Position numbers and translations under genes: made by a program. A stretch of 38,958 nt of DNA from a virus. Position 1 is the stretch's first letter, and each line of letters opens with the position of its first letter. The notes under the pieces are model-generated. The model searched no databases. It worked only from the letters and a program-made list of their open reading frames with translations, and was not told the origin of the DNA. The stretch is taken from the IMG/VR virus record IMGVR_UViG_3300036900_000195, positions 1 through 38,958 of that record. One strand, given 5' to 3'. This document shows, in pieces, positions 3,700-32,632 of this stretch.

Positions 3700-4251
3700 A
3701 TGGACGAAGGCGTGTCCGTTTTCCGCCATGCGGCTGCAGTCAGCGGGCGCGTAGCGTGTCCGGAAACCGGCGCTTCAGATCAAAAAGCCTGGTATGCGAT
3801 CCACACCCGGAGCCGCGCCGAGTTTCAGGTACGCGACCGCCTCACCGCAAAAGGAATTGCGGTTTTTTTCCCCTCTCTCGATCGCCCCTCACAGCGCCGT
3901 AATCAGCGCATCACAGTAACGCGGCCGCTGTTCCGCTGCTACCTGTTCGCAAGGGCCGAAAGGCGCGAACTGGTGGCCGTAACGGGCGTTTCGCATGTTT
4001 CGGGACCGCTCGCCGATGAGGATCTCGCCGAAATCCGGCACGCGGTCATGCCCGGCAATACCGGCGGCTTTGCGAATGTCCGCGGCGAGGGCGAAAGCGT
4101 GACAGTAGCGCGCGGCCCGTTCGCCGGCATTACAGGCGTTATCACGCGCCTGGGCCCGCGGCGGCTCGTGATCCGGGCCGCGATTCTCGGCCGCCCCTGT
4201 GTGGTTGAGATCGGCGCGGGCGACGTATTCGGCCGAAGGGCTGCAGCATAG
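3700..4251 (+). CDS. NusG/RfaH-family transcription antitermination protein
   Basis: The 183-residue protein has an N-terminal NGN domain at about residues 30-115, with the family hallmarks WYAIHTRSRAEFQVRDRL and PLFRCYLFAR, and a C-terminal KOW domain at about 131-160 (VTVARGPFAGITGVITRLG). Family members ride on RNA polymerase. Specialised paralogues (RfaH, LoaP, UpxY) suppress pausing and termination over long operons. Here the gene lies near the start of a long rightward operon, immediately before terminase, so a processive antiterminator for late genes is the natural reading. ATG 3700 is used as start, and GTG 3712 is an in-frame alternative. The first 28 residues are outside the NGN domain. 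Confidence 0.88.
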   Translation: MDEGVSVFRHAAAVSGRVACPETGASDQKAWYAIHTRSRAEFQVRDRLTAKGIAVFFPSLDRPSQRRNQRITVTRPLFRCYLFARAERRELVAVTGVSHVSGPLADEDLAEIRHAVMPGNTGGFANVRGEGESVTVARGPFAGITGVITRLGPRRLVIRAAILGRPCVVEIGAGDVFGRRAAA

Positions 4252-14210: not shown

Positions 14211-15740
14211 GTGGAATATCCGGGTATGGTGGGCGAGACTTATCCCGCGCGCAGCTTTGCGGTGTCGATCGACCGGCTCGTGAACTGGTACCCGGAAATC
14301 GTGGAATCGCGCAAGGGGAAATCGCTCATCAACTATTACCCGACGCCGGGCCTTACCCTCGTCGCCGACACCTCGGCGCTCGGCAGCGGGCGCGCGGCGT
14401 TCGCGATCGACGGCCGCCAGTTCGCCGTGATCGGGAAATATCTCGTCGAATTCGATCAGTTCGGCACCTACGCGAAGCATCCGGGCGACACTGACCCCGC
14501 GCCCGTTTTTCTTCTCGACGACGGCAACCCGGCGATGATTGTCGCGAATTCGAAGACGCCGCCGCAGCTCATGATTACGTCGGGCGGCAAGGGCTATATT
14601 TTCGATCTCTCAAGTAACGCGCTTACCGAGATCACCGGCGGCATTATCGACCCCGGCGGCACAAATACGCCCGGCCAGTTCCTCGGTTCCTCGATGGCCG
14701 CGTTTCTCGACGGCTACTTTATTGCGCTGACGCCCGATTCGCGGGGATTTCAGATTTCGCAGCTTAACGACGGCTTTACCTGGGCCGCGGATGACGTGCA
14801 GTTTAATAACGGCTCGGCCGACAAGATCAAGGCGATCATTACGGATCACGAGTACCTGTATCTGGCGGGCTCAAAGCGCATGGCGGTCTACGCGAATACG
14901 GGCCCCATAGGCACCTCGGATTTTCCGATTAACCCCGTACCCGGCGCGTTCATCGAGCAGGGGATCCGCGCGCCTTTCACGTTTCAGCGCATCGACAATA
15001 CGCTGATGTGGTTCGGGGAAAACGAGCACGGCGCGGGCTGCGTGTACCGCGCTGAGGGCTTTATCCCGAAGCGCGTTTCCACGCACGCCATTGAATCCGT
15101 ATGGACCCGTTACGGCGAAGATACCGACGCGATCGCATTCACCGATCACCGCGAGGGGCACACCTTCTACCGGCTCACGTTTCCCGCCGCGGATCAGACA
15201 TGGATTTACGACCTTGCTACAGATATGTGGCACGAGCGCGCCTCGTGGGATTCAGCGCTCGGGGCTTATCACGCGCAGGTGCAGCGCTTCCACTGCTACG
15301 CGACGGGCGGCGTCTCGCCCTTCGGCCGTCACTTTGTCGTTGGCGCGGACGGGAAAATCTATCGCGAAGACGCTTACGTTTTCACCGAAGACGGGCGCGC
15401 GATCCGGCGCGTGCGCATCGCGCCCGTGATCGCGAAAGAAAACAAGCTGATGTTTGTTTCGCGGCTCGAGATCGTCGTTCAGCCCGGCGTCGGGCTCGAC
15501 GGCGATCCCGCGGCGCAGGGCGCAAACCCGGAAATGATGCTGCGCTATTCGCCCGACTCGGGCGCTACCTGGTCCTCGGTCCTCACCGCGCGGGCCGGGC
15601 GCTCGGGGCAGTATGGCAGGCGCGTCGTATTCGATCAGCTCGGCTCCGGGCGCGCGTGGGTGCCTGAAATCTCGGTTACGGACCCGGTTAACTGGGTGAT
15701 CGTTTCCGCGCAGATCGAAGCGCAGGCGGGGGCCTGGTAA
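14211..15740 (+). CDS. Packaged-DNA stabilisation / tail hub protein, P22 gp10-like
   Basis: The 509-residue protein starts at GTG 14211, directly after the previous stop. The N-terminus (GETYPARSFAVSIDRLVNWY) and the string of beta-rich repeats in the middle (FAIDGRQFAVIGKYLVEFD, MAAFLDGYFIALTPDS, YLYLAGSKRMAVYANTG) fit the beta-propeller-like P22 gp10 hub, which stacks under gp4 and holds the DNA in the head. The end overlaps the tail-fibre start by one base (TAATG). Confidence 0.85.
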   Translation: MEYPGMVGETYPARSFAVSIDRLVNWYPEIVESRKGKSLINYYPTPGLTLVADTSALGSGRAAFAIDGRQFAVIGKYLVEFDQFGTYAKHPGDTDPAPVFLLDDGNPAMIVANSKTPPQLMITSGGKGYIFDLSSNALTEITGGIIDPGGTNTPGQFLGSSMAAFLDGYFIALTPDSRGFQISQLNDGFTWAADDVQFNNGSADKIKAIITDHEYLYLAGSKRMAVYANTGPIGTSDFPINPVPGAFIEQGIRAPFTFQRIDNTLMWFGENEHGAGCVYRAEGFIPKRVSTHAIESVWTRYGEDTDAIAFTDHREGHTFYRLTFPAADQTWIYDLATDMWHERASWDSALGAYHAQVQRFHCYATGGVSPFGRHFVVGADGKIYREDAYVFTEDGRAIRRVRIAPVIAKENKLMFVSRLEIVVQPGVGLDGDPAAQGANPEMMLRYSPDSGATWSSVLTARAGRSGQYGRRVVFDQLGSGRAWVPEISVTDPVNWVIVSAQIEAQAGAW

Positions 15741-18700
15741 TGGCGGCCACTCAAAGCGCCGGAACCGCGGGACTCGCGCCGCAGATGTCGATCGTAAACG
15801 CGGACGGCACGCCCACGGTGTTTTTCTTCCGCTGGCTGCTGAACACGGCGGCAACGGCCGCGGCGGGCGCGGGCGGCGGGAACGCGCCCGGCGACGATAC
15901 GCAGGTTGTTTTCAACGCCGGCGGCTCGCTCAGTTCTGATCCCACTTTCACGTTTCATGACGGAAGTCTCTGGCTCTCGGGGCCTCCGGGCACAGGCGTC
16001 GCAGCCCCGCTGTTCAATTCGACGGCCGAGGGCGTCGAGCACGCCTTTCAGCAGAAAGACGGGCGCTTTTACGTCACCGGCGCAGGCGACGGCTACTTTC
16101 AGAACCTCATCGTTACCGCGACTTTCAACTCGGAAGCTACCGGCACAACCGCGGCGGTCCAGCAATACACGGGCACATTCGTAATTTTCGGGAACGGCAA
16201 TGCGCAGTTTCAGGCGCTCGCGATCGCGGGGCCGCTTACGTTTCCCGACGGCACGGTTCAGATCACGGCGGCTACCTCGGGCGGCGGCGGGGGCGGGCAG
16301 AATCAGACGCCGTGGTTATCGAACATCGACGCCGCAAGTCACAGCCTCGACAAGCTCGATTTCCTGCAGTTCTCCGCAACCGGCTCGCAGGCCATTCTGT
16401 CACCCGGGGCGCTTGCTCTGATTCCCCAACAGCCGCTTTATCTTTTGCCCAAAGGCAGCCTCTTTATCGCTACGGGCTCATCGCAAACGACGCGCCTCTC
16501 GATCGACACGGCGGGGCACATTACGGCGAGCGCGGCGGATGACGGCGGGATCGTACTGGCGGCCGCGGGGAAAATTAAGAGCAGCGCGGGCGGGTTCGTT
16601 TTTCCCGACAATACGGTTCAGATCACGGCGGCCACCGGCGGCGGCGGCTCACAGACGCCGTGGCTGTCCGACATCGACGCGGCTTCTCATAACCTGCTGA
16701 ACGCAGCAAGCGTCGGCGCTGCGGCGGGCGCTGCGCTTGCGCTGAAGACGTCGGCAATATCGCGGATTTCAATCGACACTCAGGGCCACGTCTCAATCGG
16801 CAAACCAGACGGCGGCGCGGCGGCATCCCTGCTCGCCACCGATGAAATACGCATTACGACCGCAGGGGCGAACGCCAATTTCGTCATTTTTGGACCGCAG
16901 GGCAGTAACCGGAATCTCGCCTTCGGCGATAACGCGAACGGCTTCCGCTGGACGTTCGCGTGCGACAACTCCGCCGAAAGCGGCGGCAATATCGGCAGCG
17001 CGTTTTTCATCGCCCGCTGGAGTGACACCGGCAGCTATATCGACGCGCCGCTCTACATCTCGCGCAACGACGGCACCGTAACCGTTAAGGCCCTTTACAC
17101 CTCCGGGCAGATAAACGCGAACAAACTCGTACTGTCGTCCGGCGGCAGCGTGCAATTCGGCGACGGCACAATCCAGACCACGGCGGCGACCGGCGGCGGG
17201 TCACAGACGCCGTGGACGCAGAACATCAACGCCGCCGGCTTCCAGCTGCAGAACGCGGGGAAAATAGGCATCGGCACCTCGTCGCCCGCTTCCGGCCTCG
17301 TCGTTACCGGCAACGCCTCGCCCCTCACCGCTCTGATAAACGGAGCCATCGGCGCGGTGCAGGTTGCGGCTGCCGACGGGTCTTTCCCTGAAATCGGCTT
17401 CGACGGCTTCGGCGCTAACAACTGCGGCCTTCTGACGTTCCGCAGCAGCAACGGTACGAACGCGGCGAAAACGGCGAGCGGCTCCGCGCAGTACCTGGGA
17501 CAGATTCGGGGTTACGGATACGGCGCGACCGGCTATGGCGCTCTCGCGTCTGCGCTGATCGGATTTCTTTCGACCCAGGCGTACAGCGACACCGCACGCG
17601 GCGGAGCAATCGCTTTCCGCGTCATCGCGAACAACACCGTAACGCAGTCTGAAGCCATGCGGATTGACCAAAGCGGCTTCGTCGGCATCGGCAATAGCTC
17701 ACCCGCTGCTTTGCTGGACCTTATCGGGGCGACGAACGCCTCTATTCGCATCGCAAGCGCATTGACCGGGCAGCCCATGATCCGGCTGAATGCGGCTACT
17801 TCATCTGCGCCGCCATACATCCAGTTTCAGCTCGATGATTTGGCGACGAAATCGGTAACGCTCTGCATGGGCGGCGTTCCGGCCGGCGGAGCCCCGACAT
17901 CGGGCGATTTCGTAATCGCAACTTATCCCGGCAGCGGCGGGTGGATAGAGCGGTTCCGTATTCTGAACACCAACGGCAACGTGGGCATCGGCCAGGCGTC
18001 ACCCGCCGTTAAGCTCGACATCGTTTCAAACGACAGCAGCGATTCGGGCGGGGCAATTCGTATCCTTCCGGCGAATCTTACGCAGTCCGCAACCTACAGC
18101 TTCGGCGGGATTACCGGATCCTACTATTTCAAGATTCAGTCAGCTACCAACCAGTACCTGGCCCTGAATGGTGGGGGCGGGCCGGTCGTAGTGGGTTCGC
18201 TTGCAATAGGCGGCGCGGCTGCGCTGGAAGTGGGCGGCAATATCCGCATGAACGGCACGCGGTCTACCATCTTTTGTCATGGAGACACCGCAGGGCATGT
18301 AGGCGGCTTTCAACTCCTCAGTCTCGGCTCGGGCAGTCCGATGATTATCACCCCGACCGATAACGCCGGTACTCCCGCAGCCGTGCCGATTACTCTCGGC
18401 GGCTTCGGCGCATTCAACAGCACTATCGTCGGGTTGTGCGTAAGCGGCAATCTTGCCGTCGGAAGCAACGCGAACAACTCACTGACGAACGCGCTCGTCG
18501 TCAGCAAAAACACCGCCGCGCCGCGAGCGATGAGCTACAGCGACGGCATCCAGTACGTCGGCGCAGATGCGCAGATGGCGCAGATGTCGCTCGACTCCTA
18601 TGGGGCGCAGGGGGCATTGGTTAACTTCCGCTGCGCGGGCGGGACGAACGCCGCGCCAGCGGCGGTAGCGGCCAGCCAGATTATCGGCCAGGTGAACGCG

Positions 18701-19270
18701 ATGGGCTGGAACGGCTCCGGTTACGCGCAGTCGGCCTGCATTCAGTTCGTCAGTAAGGCAGCGTGGAATCCGTCGAATAACTCGACCTGCATGACTTTCA
18801 ACATCACCAGGCTGGCCTCAACGGGAATTTTCGAGGTGATGCGAGTCACCGAAGGAAGCTGCGTCGGCATAATGACGGCCACCCCCACCTATTCGCTGGA
18901 GATAGGTACTGACCTGGCCCTGAAGGCCTCAACGAGTACCTGGCAGGTTGCGTCTGACCTACGACTGAAACGCAACGTGCGGAACCTGAAAGGCGGCCTC
19001 GACGTGATTCGCAGGCTGCGCCCCGTCGAAGCCGAATACAACGGACTCGCGGGCACGAAAGACGGGCAGCGCGTCGTTTCGTTCATTGCGGACGAAGTGC
19101 GGGACGTCGTTCCGCACGCGGTCGGTTCGTCGCGGCGCAGGCTCCGCAAAGACGACGAAGACGAAACCGACGTCCTCGACCTCAACATCCACGAAATTCT
19201 GATGCATGCGATTCTTGCGATTCAGCAACTCGCGGGCGCGAAACAACTGCCCGTACAGGAGGGTTTTTAA
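15740..19270 (+). CDS. Tail fibre with C-terminal S74 self-cleaving chaperone
   Basis: This 1176-residue protein is built from Gly/Ala/Thr-rich beta repeats. A linker repeats three times at about residues 165-205, 290-320 and 470-500 (FPDGTVQITAA followed by QTPWLSNIDAA). The last ~106 residues form a peptidase S74 intramolecular chaperone: SDLRLKRN at about 1071 carries the cleavage Ser and downstream Lys, and later comes VVSFIADEVRDVVPHAV. In this family (phage endosialidases, T5 L-shaped fibre) the domain trimerises the fibre and then cuts itself off. The N-terminus probably attaches to the tail. Receptor target unknown. Confidence 0.88.
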   Translation: MAATQSAGTAGLAPQMSIVNADGTPTVFFFRWLLNTAATAAAGAGGGNAPGDDTQVVFNAGGSLSSDPTFTFHDGSLWLSGPPGTGVAAPLFNSTAEGVEHAFQQKDGRFYVTGAGDGYFQNLIVTATFNSEATGTTAAVQQYTGTFVIFGNGNAQFQALAIAGPLTFPDGTVQITAATSGGGGGGQNQTPWLSNIDAASHSLDKLDFLQFSATGSQAILSPGALALIPQQPLYLLPKGSLFIATGSSQTTRLSIDTAGHITASAADDGGIVLAAAGKIKSSAGGFVFPDNTVQITAATGGGGSQTPWLSDIDAASHNLLNAASVGAAAGAALALKTSAISRISIDTQGHVSIGKPDGGAAASLLATDEIRITTAGANANFVIFGPQGSNRNLAFGDNANGFRWTFACDNSAESGGNIGSAFFIARWSDTGSYIDAPLYISRNDGTVTVKALYTSGQINANKLVLSSGGSVQFGDGTIQTTAATGGGSQTPWTQNINAAGFQLQNAGKIGIGTSSPASGLVVTGNASPLTALINGAIGAVQVAAADGSFPEIGFDGFGANNCGLLTFRSSNGTNAAKTASGSAQYLGQIRGYGYGATGYGALASALIGFLSTQAYSDTARGGAIAFRVIANNTVTQSEAMRIDQSGFVGIGNSSPAALLDLIGATNASIRIASALTGQPMIRLNAATSSAPPYIQFQLDDLATKSVTLCMGGVPAGGAPTSGDFVIATYPGSGGWIERFRILNTNGNVGIGQASPAVKLDIVSNDSSDSGGAIRILPANLTQSATYSFGGITGSYYFKIQSATNQYLALNGGGGPVVVGSLAIGGAAALEVGGNIRMNGTRSTIFCHGDTAGHVGGFQLLSLGSGSPMIITPTDNAGTPAAVPITLGGFGAFNSTIVGLCVSGNLAVGSNANNSLTNALVVSKNTAAPRAMSYSDGIQYVGADAQMAQMSLDSYGAQGALVNFRCAGGTNAAPAAVAASQIIGQVNAMGWNGSGYAQSACIQFVSKAAWNPSNNSTCMTFNITRLASTGIFEVMRVTEGSCVGIMTATPTYSLEIGTDLALKASTSTWQVASDLRLKRNVRNLKGGLDVIRRLRPVEAEYNGLAGTKDGQRVVSFIADEVRDVVPHAVGSSRRRLRKDDEDETDVLDLNIHEILMHAILAIQQLAGAKQLPVQEGF

Positions 19271-20388: not shown

Positions 20389-20933
20389 AAGGCTACCGCG
20401 TTTTCGATGACTTTCTGCCGGATCCGGCCCGGCACCGGGCCCGCGCGCTCACGCTCGAGTACAAAACCTATGCGTTCCCCGAGGCGACGTTTCACGGTAT
20501 AGCGATCCCGCCCGAGGGCGATGTCGCGCTCGCGCTCGCCGGCCGCTTTCCGGGCGCGACGCCCACGCTTTCGTTTTTCCGGAAGTCGCCCGAGGGGCAG
20601 ACCGAGCCGCACTTTATTCACACCGATGTCGATATGGGCGATTGGACGGCGCTGCTGTATCTCAATCCGGATCCGCCCGCGGGCGACGGTACGGTTTTCT
20701 GGGAGCACGTCGCGACGGGCGAGCGCGAAAACGCCGCGCCGCATCTGCGCTCCGTCGAGGGCCGCTCGGCCGAGGGCTGGAAACCGTGGCGCAGGACCGC
20801 GGCGCGCTTTAACCGGATGCTCTTATTTCCGGCGACATACTTTCACTCGCGCGCGATCTTCGCCAATTGGGGCGACGGGGACGGCGCGCGGCTTACTCAG
20901 GTCACTTTCGGCAGGGGAGATTTACCGCTATGA
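20385..20933 (+). CDS. 2OG-Fe(II) oxygenase-like protein (DUF6445-like)
   Basis: The 182-residue protein starts at ATG 20385. It has the facial-triad pattern of 2-oxoglutarate and Fe(II) oxygenases: HTDVDMGDWTALLYLNP supplies His-x-Asp, and FPATYFHSRAIFANWG supplies the distal His. Between them are GTVFWEH and NRMLLFP, strands typical of the double-stranded beta-helix. Substrate unknown. The arrangement resembles prolyl-hydroxylase-like proteins (DUF6445, from memory). It is coupled to a GNAT gene, so the pair may modify the same target, such as a virion protein or host factor. Confidence 0.72.
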   Translation: MKGYRVFDDFLPDPARHRARALTLEYKTYAFPEATFHGIAIPPEGDVALALAGRFPGATPTLSFFRKSPEGQTEPHFIHTDVDMGDWTALLYLNPDPPAGDGTVFWEHVATGERENAAPHLRSVEGRSAEGWKPWRRTAARFNRMLLFPATYFHSRAIFANWGDGDGARLTQVTFGRGDLPL

Positions 20934-21904
20934 GCATAGGGACAGGGGCGGCGATCGCGCTCGGCGTCGGCGCGGCGGCGACGGCCGCCGGCGGGATCGG
21001 GAGCGCGCTCATCAATAAAAGCGCCGCACAGAAAGCGTCCGCGCAGCAAACGCAATCGGGACAGGCGGCGATCGACGAGCAGAAACGGCAGTTTGATATC
21101 ACGCAGGGGAATCTCGCCCCGTGGCTCACGGCGGGACAGGGCGGGCTCGCGCAGCTCGTATCGGGCACGCAGCCCGGCGGCGCGCTCGTAACGCCGTTCG
21201 GCGAAACGTACAACACGCCCGCGCCGTTTTCCTATGCGGCATTTGATCCGGGCGCCGCTTTCACCGCGCCTACGCTCGATAACACCAACGATCCCGGTTA
21301 TGCGTTCCGGCTGCAGCAGAGCCAGCAGGCGCTCACGCGCGCCGCGGCGGCGTCGGGCGGGGCATTTTCGGGCGGCACAGTCGCGGCGCTCACGCGTGCC
21401 GGACAGGACTACGCGTCGAACGAATACCAAAACGTGTACAACCGCGCTCTGACGGGCTATAACACCAATTTCAACGACCGGCTGAACTCCTATTCGACGA
21501 ATCTCGCGGGGGCGCTCAACACCTACAACACGAATGTAAATACCGGGCTCAACGCTTACAACACGCGCTTTAATGCCTTCAACACCGGGCAGACGAACAC
21601 CTACAACCGGCTCGCGGCGCTCTCGGGCAGCGGGCAGACCGCGGGAAGCACGCTCGCGACGACGGGCGCGGCCGAAGCGAACGCCGTAGCGAACCTGATT
21701 ACCGAGCAGGGCAACGCTCAGGCGGGCGGGACGCTCGGGCAGGGGGCCGCGGTCAATCAGGGCATCAATTCAGTTACCGGCGCGATCGGCGGGGGGATTA
21801 ACAGCTACCTTACCGGCTCGCTTCTCAGCAGCCTTATGGGCGGTAGCAACAAAAACCCGAGTCTGCCGGCGTGGGTTGGCGCGCCGCTCGGCTATCAGGG
21901 GTAG
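20930..21904 (+). CDS. Ejection / DNA transfer protein (324 aa)
   Basis: ATG 20930 overlaps the oxygenase-like stop. The product starts with a hydrophobic Gly/Ala-rich segment (about 4-26) and then has the pattern QFDITQGNLAPWLTAGQGGL, DPGYAFRLQQSQQALTR, GAFSGGTVAALTRAGQDYAS and NEYQNVYNRALTGYN. This series is typical of podovirus 'DNA transfer protein' relatives that leave the virion and help DNA cross the cell envelope. Asn/Tyr-rich repeats (YNTNFNDRLNSYSTN) occupy residues 175-235. It is the first of three ejection-type genes in a row, as gp7, gp20 and gp16 are in P22. Confidence 0.8.
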   Translation: MSIGTGAAIALGVGAAATAAGGIGSALINKSAAQKASAQQTQSGQAAIDEQKRQFDITQGNLAPWLTAGQGGLAQLVSGTQPGGALVTPFGETYNTPAPFSYAAFDPGAAFTAPTLDNTNDPGYAFRLQQSQQALTRAAAASGGAFSGGTVAALTRAGQDYASNEYQNVYNRALTGYNTNFNDRLNSYSTNLAGALNTYNTNVNTGLNAYNTRFNAFNTGQTNTYNRLAALSGSGQTAGSTLATTGAAEANAVANLITEQGNAQAGGTLGQGAAVNQGINSVTGAIGGGINSYLTGSLLSSLMGGSNKNPSLPAWVGAPLGYQG

Positions 21905-21913
21905 GAGGATTTT

Positions 21914-23623
21914 ATGGCGCTCGATCCGACTCTCATTACGAACGCGATGCAGGGATGGCAGGCGCCGCAGTCTTTCGACCCGTTGAGCCAGATCGCGAAG
22001 ATTCAGGCGCTCAAAAACGGCTTTGTTCAGTCGCAGGTACAGCAGCAGGCGCTTCAGTCGGGCGCGCTCGAGCTGCAGGAAAGGCAAAAAGCGATTCAGG
22101 AGCAGGACGCGCTGAACGCTGTTTTCAAATCGGCGTACATGACCGATCCCAATACCGGCGCGGTAACGCTCGACGAAAACAAACTTTATCCGGGGCTCGC
22201 GCAGGCCGGGCTCGGCGCAAAGATCCCGGGGATTCAGACGGCTATCACGGCCTCGAAGAAAAACGCCGTAGAGTTCCAGAAAGCGGACACCGACGCGAAG
22301 ACGGCAAAGGCGAATTATCTCGGGCAGGAGGTTCTGGACATTGCCGACAGCGGTTACGATCCGGGCACGTTTACCGCGAAAATCGCGTCGGCCGTCCAGC
22401 ACGGCGCGTTAACGCAGGCCGACGCCGCGCAGGCGCTCCGGCAGTTCCAGCAGAACCCGACAACTGACGGCGTTAAGGCGATCGTCGGCCCGATGCTCTC
22501 GCACTCGCCCGTGGTGCAGGATCTTCTCGACAAGCGGAAGACCGCGCAGGCCGCGGCTGATCGCGGGACGGCGGCCATACAGGGGGCGGATCTTGCGAAA
22601 GAAAAAGAACGCGTCGTGAAAGTGACCACCGCGCTGCAGGCGGCCGCCGCCGCTCAGACGCCGGATCAACTGGAAGCCGCGCGCAGCGCAGCAATTGCCG
22701 CGAAAGCGACACCGGATGAACTGAAGCGGATCCCGATGGCGCTCGATACGGCCGCGCAGGCCGCGCTGCGCCGCTCGCTTCTGACGGCCGAACAGCAGAC
22801 GACGGCCGATCAGGCGGCGCTCAACGCGAAAAACACCGAAGCCGACCGCAAGGTGACGCAGGCGCAGAACGCGAAGCGAATCGCCTTTGAGCAGCAGAAC
22901 GCCAGCATCAACGCGAAGAAATTCGCGATGGAATTCGGCGGCGACGCGGTTAAAGGATGGGCGAAACAGGTACAGGACAATCCCGACACCGCAAACACCG
23001 TCCCGCCGCCGCTGCGCACCGCCGTTATGCAGGCGTTCACGGCGAACACGGGATTACCCTATCCGAAGCCGCTCACCGGCACGGCTGTCGATCAGGAACG
23101 CGCCTCGCGTAACGCGCTCGATGCGGTCGCGCAGGTAAAGGCAGCGCTTGCGGATCCGGCGATTCAAAGCCGCATCGGGCCGATTCTCGGCCGTCTCGGC
23201 AGCGCCGAACAGACGGCGGGAACGGCTATCGGGCTAACGCCCGAACAGGAAGCGAAGGCGCAGCAGCTCAGGACCAACATGAGGTACCTGGTGTTTCAGG
23301 AGGGTAAAGCGCTCATGGGCGGCCGTATGCCGGCGCAGCTCATGACGCAGCTCGAGCAGTCAAGCCCGAATGTCGCAATGGATGCGGGCACGCTCAACGG
23401 CGCGCTCGCGGGCGTCACCGACGCTGCGGGCCGCAACCTTGATCAGACCTTCAAACAGCGCTACGGCGAAAACGCCGCGCGCCCGAAACCGGCGGCGGCC
23501 GCGCCGGCGGCCGTGCCGGCTGATGTAAAAGCCGCGCTCGCGAACCAGCCGCCCGGCGTTCACAAACTGAGCGACGGCTCGAAATGGATGAAAGCGGCCG
23601 ACGGGAGTATTACGCCGCAATAA
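21914..23623 (+). CDS. Internal virion (ejection) protein, coiled-coil (569 aa)
   Basis: ATG 21914 has a perfect TAGGAGG ribosome binding site at 21902-21908. The protein is highly helical and Gln/Ala/Lys-rich, with long coiled-coil stretches (about residues 30-85 and 215-340) and a beginning MALDPTLITNAMQGWQAPQS typical of phage internal virion proteins. No catalytic motif is seen. By position and composition it corresponds to the second P22-type ejection protein. It is followed four bases later by the large ParB-domain protein. Confidence 0.72.
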   Translation: MALDPTLITNAMQGWQAPQSFDPLSQIAKIQALKNGFVQSQVQQQALQSGALELQERQKAIQEQDALNAVFKSAYMTDPNTGAVTLDENKLYPGLAQAGLGAKIPGIQTAITASKKNAVEFQKADTDAKTAKANYLGQEVLDIADSGYDPGTFTAKIASAVQHGALTQADAAQALRQFQQNPTTDGVKAIVGPMLSHSPVVQDLLDKRKTAQAAADRGTAAIQGADLAKEKERVVKVTTALQAAAAAQTPDQLEAARSAAIAAKATPDELKRIPMALDTAAQAALRRSLLTAEQQTTADQAALNAKNTEADRKVTQAQNAKRIAFEQQNASINAKKFAMEFGGDAVKGWAKQVQDNPDTANTVPPPLRTAVMQAFTANTGLPYPKPLTGTAVDQERASRNALDAVAQVKAALADPAIQSRIGPILGRLGSAEQTAGTAIGLTPEQEAKAQQLRTNMRYLVFQEGKALMGGRMPAQLMTQLEQSSPNVAMDAGTLNGALAGVTDAAGRNLDQTFKQRYGENAARPKPAAAAPAAVPADVKAALANQPPGVHKLSDGSKWMKAADGSITPQ

Positions 23624-23627
23624 AATC

Positions 23628-26600
23628 ATGGCCGCCCTTACGGTAGTCAGTTCCGAACCGCTCCCGCCGCTCACGGTTGTGAGCTCCGAGCCGCTGCCCG
23701 CCGCACCCGAAACCGGCCGCAGCAGCTTTTTCGAGCCCGCAAATCCGGCGCTCAAACCGGCCGGGCACTTTTTCAAGTCGTTTTACGATGACGCGGTTAC
23801 GCCGTTCGTAGACGAGGTGCTCGATACGATCCACCGCGGCGATGTGGGCGCGGGCACGGTAGGAAAGCTCCTCGGCGCGTTTAAGGATCAGCTCTGGAAT
23901 TTTCAGCAGCATCCGGATATACGGAATCTTCCGATCGTAGGGCCCGGCGCGACCGCAACCGCGAACCGGATGCAGGAGCAGTACAACAAGGGCGATTATG
24001 CGGGCGCGCTCGGCTCGGCGGCCGGGTTTGTCGCTCCGCTCGTCGCGCCCGAAGCCGCGGCGGCCGCATGGGAAAAACTGCCGGCAGCAGCAAAAAGCGC
24101 GGCGTCCGCAGTGAGCAATGGCACACGGGGCGCGCTTGAAACGTTCATGGCGGCGAGCGATCCCCGCCGTCTGCTGAAACTGGTCCCGAAGGGGCAGGCT
24201 GCGGTTGACGCTTTCGATGCGGTTCAGGCCGAAAGAGCGGCCGCCCGCGCTGCGCGCACGCCTGCGCCGCCGCCCAATGTAATACGCGAATCTCCCGCAT
24301 GGGCGGATATCCAGCCGTCGCCCGCCGCGGCGACCGATTTCTCCCCGATACCGGCCGAGGGCTTGCCGTCGGGCCGAGTACCCGGCAGCCTCGCCCGCGC
24401 GGAAGCCGCGCGCGCCACGGAAGCCGAAGCGGCGGCAACTCCCGAAGTCAACCGCGACGTTATCGACGAACGCCCGGACGCGCGAACCGTAACCGAGCCA
24501 GCGGCGACGCTGCCGGAACCGTGGCAGGTTCCTAAGTCCGAAATCATCGATTATCGCGATACGCGCCCGCAGCGCACGGCGGCCGCCGCACCCGAAACAG
24601 GGGGCTACACCGAAGCGGAAATGCACGCGCGCACGCTCGAAAACCGCGCGAATGAAGACACGCCGCCCACGTTCAACCGCTACCCGGTCGGCACCTATGC
24701 AAAGGATTCCGACGGCGAGTTGTTACAGCTTCGCCGCTATCCGCTCGACGATCCGAAACTCATCTTTCCCGAGGGGATGCCGCACCCCGGAAACCAGACC
24801 GTTCAGAAATATGTGGACTGGATCGGGCAGGGCTCAGAACCGCCGCCGCTCACGGGTATTGAAACCGAAGCGGGAAATATCAAGATTCAGGAGGGCCACC
24901 ACCGCGCTGAGGCGATCCGGCAGACTGGCGGAAACGCCGCCGATGTCTGGGTAAACCTCACCCATAACAGGCCGATTGGGAACGGGCAGGTAATGGGCGA
25001 GGGCGTAACGCACGAGGGCGCTGTAAGGCGCGCGCTCGATGCGGGCGAAACCGTGCCCGCAGCCGTCCTGAACGATTACCCGGCGCTCATGGCGAAGGCG
25101 AACCCGGCGCAGATCAGCGCCGAGCCCGCCGCGGCAGAACCCGCAAGCGACCTCGAGCAGCAGCTCCGCGCCTCGATCGACCTCGCGAACGCGCGGCGCG
25201 CCGGGACGCCGGCGCTGACGCCGGCCCAGATCCTCGAGGACCACATCGACAAACACAGCGCCTATCTCGCGAATCAGGCCGAGGACATCGTATGGGCGAA
25301 CCGGGCCCGCAAAGCCGACCGCATCGCGCAGCACCTCATCGAAAACAACCTCGAGGCGACGCCCGACAACATAGCTACTGCGGCGCGGCAGCTCGACGAA
25401 GCGCGGCCGCCGTCCGAAGAAACGATCCCGATGATTCAGGACCGCGTCGACTGGCACAACGCGCGCATGGCGCAGGTAGAATCAGGGAGTGCAGGACAGC
25501 CAGCAGCAGCCGGAACAGCCGGCGAAGTGGACGCCGGAACAACTGGCGAAGTGGACGCCGGAACAACTGGAATTCGGCCGCCGGTTTACGAATCGAATCG
25601 CCCAGGCGCGAGAAAAATACGCGCGGCGGGCGATGGAACGACGGTTGAAACCCCCGGCGAAAGTCATACCTATCCGGGCCGATACGAAGTAAGGGAACTT
25701 TCCGAAGTCCAGCCCTCGCACAATCCGCACAACTTCAACCGCAACCCGCGTTACGAATACGAGAACGACCGCAACTACGACGACCCCGAAAATCAGCGCA
25801 AGATAATCGACTGGTCGCAGGGTTCACGCTTCCGGCCGCGCAACCTGCTGAACACCGCGCCCGACGCCTCGAGCGGACCGCCCATAATCGACGGCGACGG
25901 TAATGTACTCGGCGGCAACGGCCGCACCATGATTCTCGGGCGCGTCTATGAGAACAATCCCGCGGGCGCGGCCGCCTACCGGGCCGAGCTCGACCGCACG
26001 GCGGCGCACTACGGGATTGATCCCGAATCCTACGCGTACATGAAACAGCCCGTGCTCGTGCGGCGTGTGGAAGACGGCGCGCTCGAAACGCCCGAGGCGG
26101 CGCAGAAGGCGATTACCGATTTCAACAAAGCCGGCACCGCGGCGCTCACGCCGGCCGAGCGCGCGATCGCCGACGCGCGGCGCGTCTCGACAGCTACCCT
26201 CGAGGACATTTCAAAGCGTATGGACGCGATCGGGCCCGACGCCACGCTCGCGCAGGCGCTCGAGGGTAAATCGGGCGGCGAAGTACTCGCGCGTTTGATG
26301 GACGACGGCGTTATCAGCCCGCAGGAGGGCGCGCAGTTGCGCCGCGGCGGCGCGCTTACCCGCTCCGGGCAGGAGCGGGTATCCGGGCTCATGCTCGGGC
26401 GTTTCTTCTCAAACGCAAAACAGCTCGACTCGATTCCGGATGCGCTGCGCGGCAAAATGGAGCGGCTCGCCGCGCCGCTTGCGCGCGTTGAAGGGAACGC
26501 GGATTATTCGCTTTCGCCGCAGATCAGGCGCGCGCTCGATCTGACTGAAGACGCCGCGGCGCACGATATGACGCTCGACGACTTTACCCGCCAGTCGAAT

Positions 26601-26888
26601 TTCTTCGCCAGTCACAACTACCCGCCCGACGTGGTTGTGCTCGCGAAGAATCTCCAGAAGCGGAATCCGGTAGCGCTCACGCAGGCCGTGCGCAATTACG
26701 CCGAGCGCGCAAAGTACGCCGAAGAATTTCAGGGCTCCGGAATGTTCGGGGAGTTTCCGCCGCCGGTATCACCCGGCGCAGCCTTCCGCGAGAACTTCAG
26801 CGAGGAAGCAATGGCGAAGGAAGCGGCCGACGCCGCGGCGAAAAAAGCCGAAGCCGCGGCAAAGAAGAAAAAGACAGGAACGGAGTAA
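23628..26888 (+). CDS. Large ejection-type protein with two ParB-like domains (polyvalent-like)
   Basis: In this 1086-residue protein, the first 230 residues are virion-like and helical. A first ParB/sulfiredoxin-like domain lies at about 335-440, with the diagnostic IKIQEGHHRAEAI. A second, DdrB-like ParB domain lies at about 687-825, with LSEVQPSHNPHNF and VLGGNGRTMIL. The rest is helical, ending in a Lys/Ala tail. Such domains occur in phage and plasmid 'polyvalent' proteins thought to act on DNA or nucleotides in the new host (from comparative studies of these families). It may be injected with the DNA. The region at about residues 620-688 looks foreign in codon use and contains an overlapping ORF (25489-25692). 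Confidence 0.78.
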   Translation: MAALTVVSSEPLPPLTVVSSEPLPAAPETGRSSFFEPANPALKPAGHFFKSFYDDAVTPFVDEVLDTIHRGDVGAGTVGKLLGAFKDQLWNFQQHPDIRNLPIVGPGATATANRMQEQYNKGDYAGALGSAAGFVAPLVAPEAAAAAWEKLPAAAKSAASAVSNGTRGALETFMAASDPRRLLKLVPKGQAAVDAFDAVQAERAAARAARTPAPPPNVIRESPAWADIQPSPAAATDFSPIPAEGLPSGRVPGSLARAEAARATEAEAAATPEVNRDVIDERPDARTVTEPAATLPEPWQVPKSEIIDYRDTRPQRTAAAAPETGGYTEAEMHARTLENRANEDTPPTFNRYPVGTYAKDSDGELLQLRRYPLDDPKLIFPEGMPHPGNQTVQKYVDWIGQGSEPPPLTGIETEAGNIKIQEGHHRAEAIRQTGGNAADVWVNLTHNRPIGNGQVMGEGVTHEGAVRRALDAGETVPAAVLNDYPALMAKANPAQISAEPAAAEPASDLEQQLRASIDLANARRAGTPALTPAQILEDHIDKHSAYLANQAEDIVWANRARKADRIAQHLIENNLEATPDNIATAARQLDEARPPSEETIPMIQDRVDWHNARMAQVESGSAGQPAAAGTAGEVDAGTTGEVDAGTTGIRPPVYESNRPGARKIRAAGDGTTVETPGESHTYPGRYEVRELSEVQPSHNPHNFNRNPRYEYENDRNYDDPENQRKIIDWSQGSRFRPRNLLNTAPDASSGPPIIDGDGNVLGGNGRTMILGRVYENNPAGAAAYRAELDRTAAHYGIDPESYAYMKQPVLVRRVEDGALETPEAAQKAITDFNKAGTAALTPAERAIADARRVSTATLEDISKRMDAIGPDATLAQALEGKSGGEVLARLMDDGVISPQEGAQLRRGGALTRSGQERVSGLMLGRFFSNAKQLDSIPDALRGKMERLAAPLARVEGNADYSLSPQIRRALDLTEDAAAHDMTLDDFTRQSNFFASHNYPPDVVVLAKNLQKRNPVALTQAVRNYAERAKYAEEFQGSGMFGEFPPPVSPGAAFRENFSEEAMAKEAADAAAKKAEAAAKKKKTGTE
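25489..25692 (+). CDS. Possible overlapping gene inside the ParB-domain protein (67 aa)
   Basis: GTG 25489 to TAA 25690-25692, read in another frame from the large ORF. The protein has two tandem copies of KWTPEQLA/E then a basic helical stretch (RFTNRIAQAREKYARRAMER) and ends IPIRADTK. In this frame the codons (GAA, CGG, GCG, AAA) look like normal phage genes, while the main frame here uses rarer ones (GGA ACA ACT, CCA, AGA, ATA). TAGAAT at 25477-25482 lies exactly six bases before the start, the same TAnnnT-N6 pattern seen at other candidate leaderless starts. It could be a true overprinted gene, or a former separate gene now read through in the other frame. Confidence 0.4.
   Translation: MQDSQQQPEQPAKWTPEQLAKWTPEQLEFGRRFTNRIAQAREKYARRAMERRLKPPAKVIPIRADTK
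25521..25568 (+). repeat. Two perfect 24-bp tandem repeats
   Basis: Units 25521-25544 and 25545-25568 are identical. They encode GEVDAGTT twice in the large protein and KWTPEQLA/E twice in the overlapping frame. Since 24 is a multiple of three, both frames stay open. Confidence 0.9.
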
Positions 26889-26893
26889 CCACC

Positions 26894-29800
26894 ATGAAAG
26901 CGATTATTCTTATCGGCGCGCTCGCGATCGCGGGCGCGCCCGCCGTTTACGGGCAGGCCGCGGCGTCGCTTTCGCCCGCGCCGCGGCTGCAGTTTTTCGA
27001 CAACGCAGGCAAGCCGCTCGCCGGCGGCTGTATCCAGTCCTATCAGGCGGGCTCGACGACGCCGCTCGCAACCTATTCAAACGCCGCGGGCGCGGCGAAC
27101 CCGAACCCGGTAATACTTGACGCCTACGGGCGCGCCGACATCTGGCTCGGCGGCGGCATCGCCTACAAGCTCGTCATACGCGCGAAAACAACGGGCTGCG
27201 CGGGCGGCGGCGGCGCGATCCTTTACACGACCGACGGGATTATAGATCAGGGCTTTTCTCTCGCGCACTCGCTCCAGGCCGGCACGCTCGCGATCGGGCT
27301 GCGCTCGTCGCCCGCGACGGGCGCGGGCGGCGGCGTCGGAGTGGGTAACGCGCTGCTTTCGGCAACCACGACGGGGCTTTATGTCTCGGTCAACGGCGGC
27401 GCGCCCGTTCTGCTGAACGGGGGCGGCGGCGGCGGAAGCGGCAGCCCCGGCGGCCCGATCAACAGCGTGCAGTACAACAGCGGAGCAGCGCTCGGCGGTT
27501 CCTTAAATATGGTGTGGGACAACCCCGACGCCATCATGACGATATGCGGGCCGCCGGCGACCGGATGCACGCCGAATTCCGGCTTTCAGGCGCCGACCTT
27601 CTCGAGCTCGGCCACGGGGATAAATAACGCTTTTGAAACCGCCGGCGGAACCTTCACCATTAAAGGCAACGGCGACGGGTTATTTCAGGATCTCAGCGTC
27701 ACCGCGACCTTTAACTCGCTTGCGACGGGCTCGACCTCGGCGATTCAGCAGGCGAGCGGAACTTTCAGGATCACGGGCGCGGGCGCCGGATTATTTCAAA
27801 GCGTCGCGATGGGCCTGCAGGCCGCGCCCGTCACCGGCATCGGGGGCGGTACGGGCGTCGGCAGCGCGCAGCTCTCGGCGACTACCGCGGGGCTCTATCT
27901 CTCCCTCAACGGCGGCGCGCCGGCGCTTATCACGGGCGGCGGCGGCGCCGGAAGTCCGGGCGCTCCGATAAATTCGATCCAGTACAACAACGCCGGCACA
28001 TTCGCCGGCACCGCGAATCTGCTCTGGAACAACAGCGCGAACCAGATGACGATCACGGGCGCGGCGACGGCCGGTTTTCAGGCGCCCGCGTTCTCGAGCT
28101 CAAACAGCGGCACGGCCGTCGCCTATACGAACTCGGGCGGTACCTTTCAGGTGTTCGGGAACGGCGACGGGTTATTTCAGGATCTGAGCGTCACCGCTAC
28201 GTTTAACTCGCTCGCCACCGGCGCGACCTCCGCGATTCAGCAGGGGAGCGGGACTTTCAGAATCACCGGCGCAGGCGACGGGTTATTTCAGACGACGGCG
28301 CTCGGTCTGAAAAATGCGGCAGTGACCGGGCTCGGCGGCGGCACGGGCGTCGGTAATGCCCTGCTCTCGGCGACCACGGCCGGGCTGTACCTCTCGCTCA
28401 ACGGCGCGCCGCCGGTGGCGCTCACGGGCGGGGGCGGCGGCTCGGGAACGCCCGGCGGCCCGGCGACTTCGATCCAGTACAACAACGCCGGCGCGTTTGC
28501 CGGTTCCGCGAATCTGGTTTTTAACAGCACCGCGAATATCATGACGATCACCGGCGGCGTGAATGCCGGTTTTCAGGCGCCGGTATTCTCGAGCTCGGCG
28601 ACGGGCACGAACGCGGCTTTCGTGGCGAATAACGGGGCCGCTCAGATTCTCGGCAACGGCGACGCCACGTTTCAGAATGTGGTTGTCAACGCCACGTTTA
28701 ACAGCGTGGCAACCGGCGCGACTAAGGTTATCCAGCAGTCGAGCGGTACGTTTTCGATCACGGGCGCGGGCGATGCGGGCTTTCAAAGCACCGCGCTCGG
28801 TCTGAAAGCCGCGGCGACGACCGGCCTCGGCGGCGGCACGGGCGTCGGTAACGCCATGCTTTCGGCGACTACGGCCGGGCTCTGGCTGTCCGTAAACGGC
28901 GGTGCGCCGGCGCTGCTCGCCGCGGGCGGCGCGCCCGGCGGGCCGTCTGGCGCGGTCCAGTTCAACAGCGGCGGCGTTTTTACCGGGAACTCTAATTTTG
29001 TGGTGACCGGCGGCGGCGTGGTGACCGTCTGCGCGCCGCCGGCCGTCAACTGCACAGTTAACAGCGGCTATCAGGGGCCGAGCTTCTCGAGCTCGGCAAC
29101 CGGCGCGAATCCGGCTTTCGTTGCGGGAAACGGGGCCGGCCAGATCAACGGCAACGGAGCCGCGGCTTTTCAGTCGCTCGCCCTTACCGGCGGCATTACC
29201 GTCGGCAACGGCTTTTATGGGCTCACCGGCGGCGGCGCTCTCACCGTCTCGAGCTGCTCGGGCTGCAGCGCGGGCGTTACGAGCTGGAACGCGCGCACGG
29301 GCGCGGTGGCGCTGACAAAAGCGGATGTTACGACCGTCGAAGGCCAGGGCCTCGGGACCGCCGACAGCGTTTCATTTAACGCCGTAACGGCTAATCAGCA
29401 TAACGGCGGAACCTACGCCGGCACGCTCTATAACTGCAGCTCGGCCGGCTCGTCGTCCTGTTTTCAGCAGTCGAGCGGGCGATTCCAGATCAACGGCGAC
29501 GGCAACGCCTATTTTCAGAGTCTTTGCGTGATTAACGGCTTTCCGGGCTCGGATACGTGCAACGGGGTTACGCCCGCCGCGGGCAGCGTAGTCGGCAGCG
29601 GCATCAGCGCGCTTACTCTCGGGGCGACGATCCGCAATACCGCGGCTAACTACGGCATCGCCGAAACCGACACCGGCGGGAACTGCAACATCGGCACGGC
29701 GTACGCGGGCGGGATCGGCTGCGCATCGGACGCGCGGCTCAAGACAAAGATCGCCGATCTTCCGGCCGCGCTCGCGGGAGTCCTCAAGCTGCGGCCCGTC

Positions 29801-29995
29801 ACATTCACCTGGACGAAAAACAGCGCGCCGGGTATCGGGTTCATTGCGCAGGACGTTGAAAAGGTATTCCCCGGCGTCGTCCGGAAGGAAACCGACGGCT
29901 ATCTCTCGGTCGCGTATATGGGGCTGATTCCGGAGCTCGTGAAAGCCATACAGGAACTTACGGCGCGCGTCGCCGTTCTCGAGGGGCATAAATGA
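26894..29995 (+). CDS. Second S74 tail fibre with N-terminal signal peptide
   Basis: In this 1033-residue protein, the N-terminus MKAIILIGALAIAGAPAVYG is a good Sec signal peptide with likely cleavage before Gln. A tail-type domain (LQFFDNAGKPLAGGCIQSYQ ... PVILDAYGRADIWL) follows at about 32-100. Then come four tandem ~165-residue beta repeats (about 130-680), each with TGVGNALLSATTAGLY and ASGTFRITGAG-type motifs. The C-terminus is an S74 chaperone starting at SDARLKTK (about 945) with GIGFIAQDVEKVFPGVV. Such signal peptides are unusual in virion fibres. The stop overlaps the next start (ATGA). Confidence 0.85.
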   Translation: MKAIILIGALAIAGAPAVYGQAAASLSPAPRLQFFDNAGKPLAGGCIQSYQAGSTTPLATYSNAAGAANPNPVILDAYGRADIWLGGGIAYKLVIRAKTTGCAGGGGAILYTTDGIIDQGFSLAHSLQAGTLAIGLRSSPATGAGGGVGVGNALLSATTTGLYVSVNGGAPVLLNGGGGGGSGSPGGPINSVQYNSGAALGGSLNMVWDNPDAIMTICGPPATGCTPNSGFQAPTFSSSATGINNAFETAGGTFTIKGNGDGLFQDLSVTATFNSLATGSTSAIQQASGTFRITGAGAGLFQSVAMGLQAAPVTGIGGGTGVGSAQLSATTAGLYLSLNGGAPALITGGGGAGSPGAPINSIQYNNAGTFAGTANLLWNNSANQMTITGAATAGFQAPAFSSSNSGTAVAYTNSGGTFQVFGNGDGLFQDLSVTATFNSLATGATSAIQQGSGTFRITGAGDGLFQTTALGLKNAAVTGLGGGTGVGNALLSATTAGLYLSLNGAPPVALTGGGGGSGTPGGPATSIQYNNAGAFAGSANLVFNSTANIMTITGGVNAGFQAPVFSSSATGTNAAFVANNGAAQILGNGDATFQNVVVNATFNSVATGATKVIQQSSGTFSITGAGDAGFQSTALGLKAAATTGLGGGTGVGNAMLSATTAGLWLSVNGGAPALLAAGGAPGGPSGAVQFNSGGVFTGNSNFVVTGGGVVTVCAPPAVNCTVNSGYQGPSFSSSATGANPAFVAGNGAGQINGNGAAAFQSLALTGGITVGNGFYGLTGGGALTVSSCSGCSAGVTSWNARTGAVALTKADVTTVEGQGLGTADSVSFNAVTANQHNGGTYAGTLYNCSSAGSSSCFQQSSGRFQINGDGNAYFQSLCVINGFPGSDTCNGVTPAAGSVVGSGISALTLGATIRNTAANYGIAETDTGGNCNIGTAYAGGIGCASDARLKTKIADLPAALAGVLKLRPVTFTWTKNSAPGIGFIAQDVEKVFPGVVRKETDGYLSVAYMGLIPELVKAIQELTARVAVLEGHK
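27280..29000 (+). repeat. Four ~500-bp coding repeats in the second fibre gene
   Basis: Units begin near 27280, 27805, 28300 and 28795. The shared protein landmarks are GGGTGVGNALLSATTAGLYL, SIQYNNAG, GFQAPxFSSS, and FNSLATGATSAIQQxSGTF. They are similar but not identical, with the last the most diverged. Related motifs (ATFNSEATGTTAAVQQYTGT) also occur once in the first fibre (near 16120-16185), so the two fibres share an ancestor or exchange modules. Confidence 0.8.
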
Positions 29996-30306
29996 AACTG
30001 CTTATCGCGCTCGCGTCATTCCTCGTGTTCGCCGCGCTCGCGCAGACGGGCGGTGACGTGACCGCCGGCGGATCCGGGCCCGCGGCCGCGGCGACAATAC
30101 CGCTCGATCATCAGCTCGAGTACTTCCGCACCGACGGCCGGCTCGCGCATCTCCGGGCCGAGCTCGCCGCGGCGAACACCGAATACGAGGCGGCCGTTAA
30201 AGTAGTCGTGAAAGACTGCGGCGAGGGATCCGGGCCCGTGCTGACGCAGGACGGCAGGCACCTTTTCTGCGTGGCGCAGGCGCCCGCGGCCGCGGCGAAA
30301 AAATAA
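29992..30306 (+). CDS. Small exported protein (104 aa)
   Basis: ATG 29992 overlaps the fibre stop. A signal peptide is clear (MKLLIALASFLVFAALAQTG, cleavage likely after ALA). The mature part has a Gly/Ala-rich linker, a helix (YFRTDGRLAHLRAELAAANT), and two cysteines about 19 residues apart (KDCGEG, LFCVAQ) that could form a disulfide in the periplasm. It is coupled to a fibre that also has a signal peptide, so the two may work together outside the cytoplasm. Spanin-like function is possible but not supported by a motif. Confidence 0.65.
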   Translation: MKLLIALASFLVFAALAQTGGDVTAGGSGPAAAATIPLDHQLEYFRTDGRLAHLRAELAAANTEYEAAVKVVVKDCGEGSGPVLTQDGRHLFCVAQAPAAAAKK

Positions 30307-30521
30307 TGGCCGACGATTACACCTGCGACGCCTGCGGAACCCGCACCCACGCCGAGCAGGCGCGCGGTCACTGGCTCGCGCTGCGGCTTGCCGGCGACCG
30401 GCGCGGCATCGAAATCAGGAAATTCGAGAATTCCGGGCCGGATGATCGGTACGTGTGCAGCGCGGCCTGCGCGCTGAGCCGCATATCAGAGGTATTCGCC
30501 GGGCTGCAGCCGCCCCGCTGA
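30306..30521 (+). CDS. Small zinc-ribbon-like protein (71 aa)
   Basis: ATG 30306 overlaps the previous stop (TAATG). A probable zinc site is formed by CDAC near residue 7 and CSAAC near residue 51, with an intervening amphipathic stretch (GHWLALRLAGDRRGIEIRKF). It is the last gene of the long rightward operon. Its stop codon lies inside an inverted repeat shared with the convergent gene. Function unknown, possibly DNA or protein binding. Confidence 0.6.
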   Translation: MADDYTCDACGTRTHAEQARGHWLALRLAGDRRGIEIRKFENSGPDDRYVCSAACALSRISEVFAGLQPPR

Positions 30522-31994: not shown

Positions 31995-32174
31995 ATGGCA
32001 GGCACGAACAACGGAGGGAAAGTGTTAGTCGATGTAGCGGCCGCAGGGCGTAAGGGCGGCCATGCCCGCGCGAAGGCGATGACGAAAGAGGAGCGCAGCG
32101 AGAGCGCGCGTAAAGCCGTTCAGGCGCGATGGGCGAAAGCGCCTAAAAAGAAGGCGGCGAAGAAGGCGAAATGA
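31995..32174 (+). CDS. Small basic Lys-rich protein (59 aa), KGG/ARW-type
   Basis: ATG 31995 to TGA 32172-32174. It has the motifs GRKGGHARAKAMTKEERSES and ARKAVQARWAK, followed by a histone-like Lys/Ala tail (KAPKKKAAKKAK). The pattern 'KGG... MT..ER...ARKA...RW' is frequent in small DNA-binding and antitoxin-like proteins (from memory). It is the first gene of the rightward unit, next to the palindromic operators, so it may be the regulator. It ends overlapping the next start (ATGA). Confidence 0.65.
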   Translation: MAGTNNGGKVLVDVAAAGRKGGHARAKAMTKEERSESARKAVQARWAKAPKKKAAKKAK

Positions 32175-32632
32175 ATAAATTACGGATTCAGGCCATTCTG
32201 GCGTTTGCGCTCATCTGCGCGCCGCTCACGGCCGCGCAGCCGGTTTACCAGGTGCTTCTCGAGGTGACTGCGCCGGATGACTCGGGGCTGAAGACGAGGA
32301 TTATCAGCGCCGCTTCGCGAGAACTTCGCAAGCTCGGTGATGTCACCGTGGCTGACGAAAAAAATTCCTATTTTGCTTTGCATATTATCGCTATGCGCAC
32401 TAAGAACAGAGCAGGGGTTGAAACCGGTTATGCTTTCGCAGCTACGGCGAACTGGTCGAAAACAGGCGCCGAACAGTCGAAGGCCGAAAACTGGATAACT
32501 ACATTCCTGATGTCAGATTCGGACCTTGATGCCCTATGTGTGGACACGGTGGCGACTTTCGACACCGAAATACTGAACCGAGCCCGAAAGATGTTTGCCG
32601 CGGCGCCCCGCGCCGGGGAAGACCCGAAATAA
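32171..32632 (+). CDS. Exported hypothetical protein (153 aa)
   Basis: A signal peptide is visible (MNKLRIQAILAFALICAPLT, cleavage likely after TA-A). The mature protein has an alpha/beta pattern (VYQVLLEVTAPDDSGLKTRI, TVADEKNSYFALHIIAMRTK) with Asp/Thr-rich segments and one Cys near residue 123. It follows the small regulator-like gene in a unit close to the integrase, so it could be expressed in the lysogen, for example for surface change or superinfection exclusion. Family not recognised. The stop overlaps the next start (TAATG). Confidence 0.65.
   Translation: MNKLRIQAILAFALICAPLTAAQPVYQVLLEVTAPDDSGLKTRIISAASRELRKLGDVTVADEKNSYFALHIIAMRTKNRAGVETGYAFAATANWSKTGAEQSKAENWITTFLMSDSDLDALCVDTVATFDTEILNRARKMFAAAPRAGEDPK

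Follow-up and report, generated by a model that had tools for sequence, protein, structure and literature searches.

The gene at 26894..29995 (+) of the window, the 38,958-base virus record analysed here as a whole, encodes a 1033-residue fibre that begins with a Sec-like signal and that, by its head-binding (HB) domain and gene position, is identifiable from sequence as the virion tailspike of a P22-like phage. The explanation we favour, by a little over even odds, is that a family of uncultured P22-like phages exports its receptor-binding tailspike via a cleavable signal, that the spike acquires disulfide bonds, and that it joins finished particles only at lysis. The fibre and a small partner protein coupled to it are well supported as exported proteins; signal cleavage, actual disulfide formation, mounting at lysis, and a role for the partner are what we infer beyond this. 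The accepted view places completion of tailed-phage virions in the cytoplasm. A literature search for exported tailspikes or decoration proteins in tailed phages returned no match, and a signal-exported tailspike with paired cysteines, added only at cell burst, would be without known precedent among them.

The fibre consists of a Sec-like signal, an HB domain, a repeated shaft, and a C-terminal S74 chaperone. A ribosome-binding site, GGAG (26882..26885, +), lies 8 nt upstream of the ATG, and the predicted signal peptide occupies residues 1-20 (26894..26953, +). The N-terminus reads MKAIILIGALAIAGAPAVYG|QAAASLSP, with a positive n-region, a hydrophobic core, and a predicted cleavage site at VYG|Q. 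The HB domain follows at residues 22-117, its start being approximate (26957..27244, +), and includes Cys46 and Cys102, the pair that is conserved among the exported proteins. The repeated shaft (27245..29725, +) has cysteine pairs at residues 218/225, 713/720, 788/791, 848/856, 878/889, and 931/943, and leads into the Peptidase_S74 intramolecular chaperone at residues 945-996 (29726..29881, +; Pfam, 55 bits against a cut-off of 22), which opens with the catalytic motif SDARLK at residue 945. The window fibre thus has the C-terminal S74 domain with SDxxxK that defines S74 chaperone-fibres, and the S74 fibre with a Sec-like start reported in the preliminary description is borne out. A wrong start codon was ruled out, as there is no in-frame ATG, GTG, or TTG between the start at 26894 and the conserved domain; the hydrophobic stretch therefore could not be skipped by an ordinary start, and the fibre begins at 26894.

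Identification as a tailspike draws on the HB domain, which corresponds to residues common to many phage proteins, and on its surroundings. A profile of nine signal-bearing HB domains matches PDB 7eeq, the Pam1 'Tailspike head-binding domain', at 1.8e-8, and also the tail spike proteins in 9vyg and 9vyh. An AlphaFold model of the domain, built with 40 sequences (mean pLDDT 80.8), gave a Foldseek search in which the first 14 rows were all podovirus structures, headed by the head-binding domains of Pan3, Pam1, and P22 (P22: 1lkt, 2vky, 9jg6) and with Sf6 among them. The fibre gene also lies directly after the ejection proteins in a genome with a gp4/gp10-type tail, the late operon running in the order terminase, P22-like portal, coat, gp4- and gp10-like tail proteins (the latter, Hc3, at 14211..15740, +), fibre 1, GNAT and 2OG genes, three ejection-type proteins in the gp7, gp20, and gp16 positions (20930..26888, +; all lacking signals and cysteines), and the fibre. 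Xanthomonas phage PBR31 has its tail spike directly after internal proteins A, B, and C (PMC10975493). Its gene order is that of the window, with a signal-less tail spike at the position of the fibre, and this synteny, together with the sequence and model of the HB domain, is why the fibre is assigned as the tailspike. A gp10-like homolog was present in all signal-bearing records of one survey and in nearly all loci of another. The modules C-terminal to the HB domain differ between records, with S74 in the window and in relative L092, and bodies that by eye resemble beta-helix tailspikes in L139 and L099. A bacterial adhesin or a stray phage fragment was ruled out by the complete late operon around the fibre. 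Upstream of the terminase genes, the window also encodes a NusG-like protein (3700-4251; Pfam NusG, 8.6e-12), possibly a phage antiterminator.

Signals were sought with a home-made, simple tripartite rule set, on genes called by a crude script. Three of the 39 window genes pass: the fibre, its partner, and 32171-32632, a third exported-looking protein of 153 residues that lies near the integrase and belongs to no known family. The background rate is 3.6% of all open start-codon sites, and shuffled versions of the fibre's first 30 residues still pass 52% of the time, so that the pattern, seen in one sequence only, would be weak evidence. What carries the case for a signal is conservation: 32 signal-bearing HB proteins were found in viral contigs, their signals diverse in sequence and all in the same place, and 31 of them have the HB cysteine pair. 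A chance hydrophobic start was ruled out by this conservation, despite the frequent passing of shuffled N-termini. The preliminary description proposed a search of relatives for the same signal, and 31 others have one; that relatives might start after the hydrophobic segment is true of the signal-less relatives and does not hold for these 31. In the signal-less relatives, the start corresponds to the expected start of the mature protein, which fits cleavage of the exported form to a normal spike.

The HB proteins encoded by isolated or sequenced phages (PBR31, P26218, DSL-LC05, and two spring phages) and by bacterial genomes, in the phyla reached via two bacterial matches, lack a signal and contain zero or one cysteine. 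Genome contigs, plasmids, and phage records were searched for the host; the search returned signal-less relatives or nothing, and found no bacterial group with signal-bearing copies. Trees of the short HB domain are weakly resolved, with most signal-bearing rows in one group and L292/L293 and L294 apart; on these trees the export label changes three to four times, so that more than one origin is possible, and a single origin is also compatible. The HB protein of L294 (7944-10913), which has a signal but no HB cysteines, stands separately: its phage is of the gp10 type and lies outside the main group, and export may have been gained there independently.

Cysteine pairing co-occurs with the signal. 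In the enlarged sample, exactly two HB-domain cysteines were found in 31/32 signal-bearing versus 0/102 signal-less proteins (first sample: 11/11 versus 0/91), counts that are not independent because the HB sequences are related, and in which the share of signal-bearing copies is a biased frequency, since the queries of the two last scans included the signal. In most copies the first of the two occupies either of two positions separated by two residues (GGC.. or GG..C), a shift that a disulfide on one face of a beta-strand would be expected to allow. The cysteine total over the mature protein is even in 31/32 signal-bearing proteins (p=1.5e-8) versus 36/58 signal-less ones; the exception, L091, is cut by the contig end, and some others of the 32 are also truncated. 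The window fibre has 14 cysteines that form seven putative pairs, in six of which the partners lie no more than 12 residues apart (mean of simulations 1.8, P=0.0001), whereas the nine cysteines of fibre 1 are scattered with zero local pairs. Where the two shafts are homologous over 128 residues, only the exported copy has a pair (ICGPPATGC versus LSGPPGTGV in fibre 1).

The two genes flanking the tailspike differ sharply in the same respects. Across records, the gene before it has a signal in 0/30 cases and 0.04 cysteines per 100 residues, and the gene after it, in an unselected set, has a signal in 17/19 cases and 2.04 cysteines per 100 residues; in both misses the ORF as called overlaps the tailspike. 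Signals are present in 0/81 cases among terminase, portal, scaffold, coat, gp4, and gp10, and 3/31 gp7-type proteins pass the test. As judged by these predicted signals, export begins exactly at the tailspike gene. In the window, the following gene (29992..30306, +) overlaps the fibre gene by an exact ATGA, as the preliminary description had it, and encodes a 104-residue partner with a predicted signal of its own (residues 1-17, MKLLIALASFLVFAALA|QTG, site ALA|Q) and a putative Cys76/Cys93 pair. No Pfam family above cut-off and no PHROGs family was found for the partner; its one ortholog lies directly after the exported tailspike of L092. Next in both genomes is a small protein with four cysteines, zinc-ribbon-like by eye (30306..30521, +, in the window). 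Relatives often have further exported proteins after the tailspike, of up to 1608 residues, and large, cysteine-rich, signal-bearing proteins (up to 1608-1663 residues) follow the ejection genes at L280:9406-15527, L282:9402-14228, and L246:2224-10534, possibly as exported fibres.

These observations bear on whether the hydrophobic N-terminus is a signal at all. It could instead be a part of the virion, such as a membrane-inserting or tail-docking segment, as would befit the normally cytoplasmic spikes of tailed phages and the weakness of the single-sequence pattern that the shuffles reveal. We consider this highly improbable, given that 32 diverse sequences share the tripartite organisation and have small residues ahead of the domain edge, that signals co-occur with cysteine pairs, and that a similar N-terminus is encoded by the following gene.

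If the fibre is exported, the question becomes whether it still reaches the virion. The preliminary description proposed that it masks receptors or is released as a decoy; the export part of that proposal, for fibre and partner alike, is strongly supported, with the 32 conserved signals and the cysteine pairs behind it, but the mask or decoy role runs against the HB domain, the tailspike position, the single HB protein per record, and Sec delivery to the periplasm. If the host is a diderm, transport by Sec and nothing further would take the protein no farther than the periplasm, a point against a released decoy. A broader version of the idea, in which a tailspike copy now works off the virion, in the periplasm or at the surface, to mask receptors, exclude superinfection, or act as a released decoy, and the partner serves as its anchor or chaperone, also accommodates the signals and cysteine pairs, and bacterial exported S74 fibres are known in the Bdellovibrio MAT family (PMC10769870). 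Fibre 1 (15740..19270, +), a signal-less S74 fibre of 1176 residues in the position of the PBR31 'tail spike adaptor', could then be the virion fibre, having an S74 domain and shaft repeats in common with the exported fibre. Such a role nevertheless leaves the retained HB domain and gene position to be accounted for, and with one HB gene in each record examined, these phages would be without a head-bound spike. The fibre 1 position is, moreover, filled by proteins of only 267-322 residues in the close relatives L090, L091, L118, and L139 (638 in L092), and no outer-membrane export part was seen. A lipoprotein, including an Llp/Cor-type surface-exclusion lipoprotein, was ruled out by the absence of a lipobox cysteine at the cleavage sites of both fibre and partner. 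A non-virion role is, on balance, doubtful.

Less probable again is a dual fate, in which some chains stay in the cytoplasm and are mounted in the usual way while others are exported to act outside. This would reconcile the HB domain with the signal, and a few relatives (L097, L204) have a GTG at the domain start; no such start exists in the window, L090, or L118, and cysteine pairs that lie within the HB domain suit a chain that folds in an oxidising environment.

Under the favoured explanation of export followed by mounting at lysis, the tailspike chain would be made with a cleavable Sec signal, exported, and relieved of the signal. The trimer would fold outside the cytoplasm, with the paired cysteines forming disulfides, probably in the periplasm, where the small coupled protein would be a partner. 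Because a spike with an intact HB domain that leaves the cytoplasm can meet a virion only once the inner membrane fails, the mature spike, with its ordinary HB domain, would mount on the tails of completed particles once lysis brings cytoplasmic virions into contact with the periplasm. In P22, the spike is added last and can be mounted on particles in vitro; Israel et al. (1967, cited in PMC3741392) are said to have joined P22 heads and tail parts in vitro. The decoration protein Dec of phage L binds finished P22 capsids in vitro (PMC6449081). Together, the in vitro joining and the binding of Dec make late mounting feasible. Counting against the explanation, no holin, endolysin, or other lysis gene was recognised in the window, and fibre 1, long and signal-less, could serve adsorption. 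The isolated phages PBR31, P26218, and DSL-LC05 make an HB spike with no signal, so that export is not required for a spike to work.

The gene directly after the coat, the position of decoration proteins, encodes a Sec-like signal at L241:14327-15325(-), L245:5376-6113(-), L248:11610-12449(-), and L252:9568-10563(-); homologous post-coat genes at L239:12374-13018(-), L247:5071-5688(-), and L249:14711-15400(-) have no signal and start near the mature boundary. A wider split of assembly, in which heads and tails are cytoplasmic and the tailspike, further fibres, and some decoration-position proteins are exported, disulfide-bonded in the periplasm, and added only at lysis, may be given an even chance. 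A whole group of phages with Sec signals and paired cysteines on the receptor-binding spikes would imply a second assembly compartment, spikes that disulfides stabilise for the environment, and free periplasmic spikes before lysis. By the same token, signal peptides on metagenomic phage fibres would not have to be annotation noise, and laboratory expression of such spikes would change to the mature form in an oxidising compartment.

Among known systems, the window is most readily set beside the gp9-type tailspikes of P22, Sf6, Pam1, and Pan3 and that of PBR31, which it resembles in the HB domain (by profile and modelled fold) and in the gp4/gp10-type tail, and with PBR31 also in gene position directly after the ejection proteins. 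P22-type tailspikes are made without a signal and folded in the cytoplasm, unlike the window fibre with its Sec-like signal, HB cysteine pair, further cysteine pairs, and exported partner; the body of the P22 spike is a beta-helix enzyme, in place of which the window has an S74 shaft. Judged by these features, the window fibre is an exported variant, and not a standard member, of the P22-type tailspikes. The endosialidase-type S74 fibres of K1F and T5 share the C-terminal S74 domain with SDxxxK, but are cytoplasmic products without a signal. The filamentous phage protein pIII, a virion receptor-binding protein with a Sec signal and disulfides, is like the window protein in its signal and in the receptor-binding role and disulfides proposed for the latter, but belongs to a phage that is not tailed and assembles by extrusion through the membrane. 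The Bdellovibrio MAT fibres have a signal peptide, a beta-rich domain, and a long trimeric fibre, with an S74 end in 13/21 (PMC10769870), a plan similar to that of the window fibre. MAT proteins are surface adhesins encoded on bacterial chromosomes, whereas the window fibre is encoded in a phage late operon, in the tailspike position and with a podoviral HB domain.
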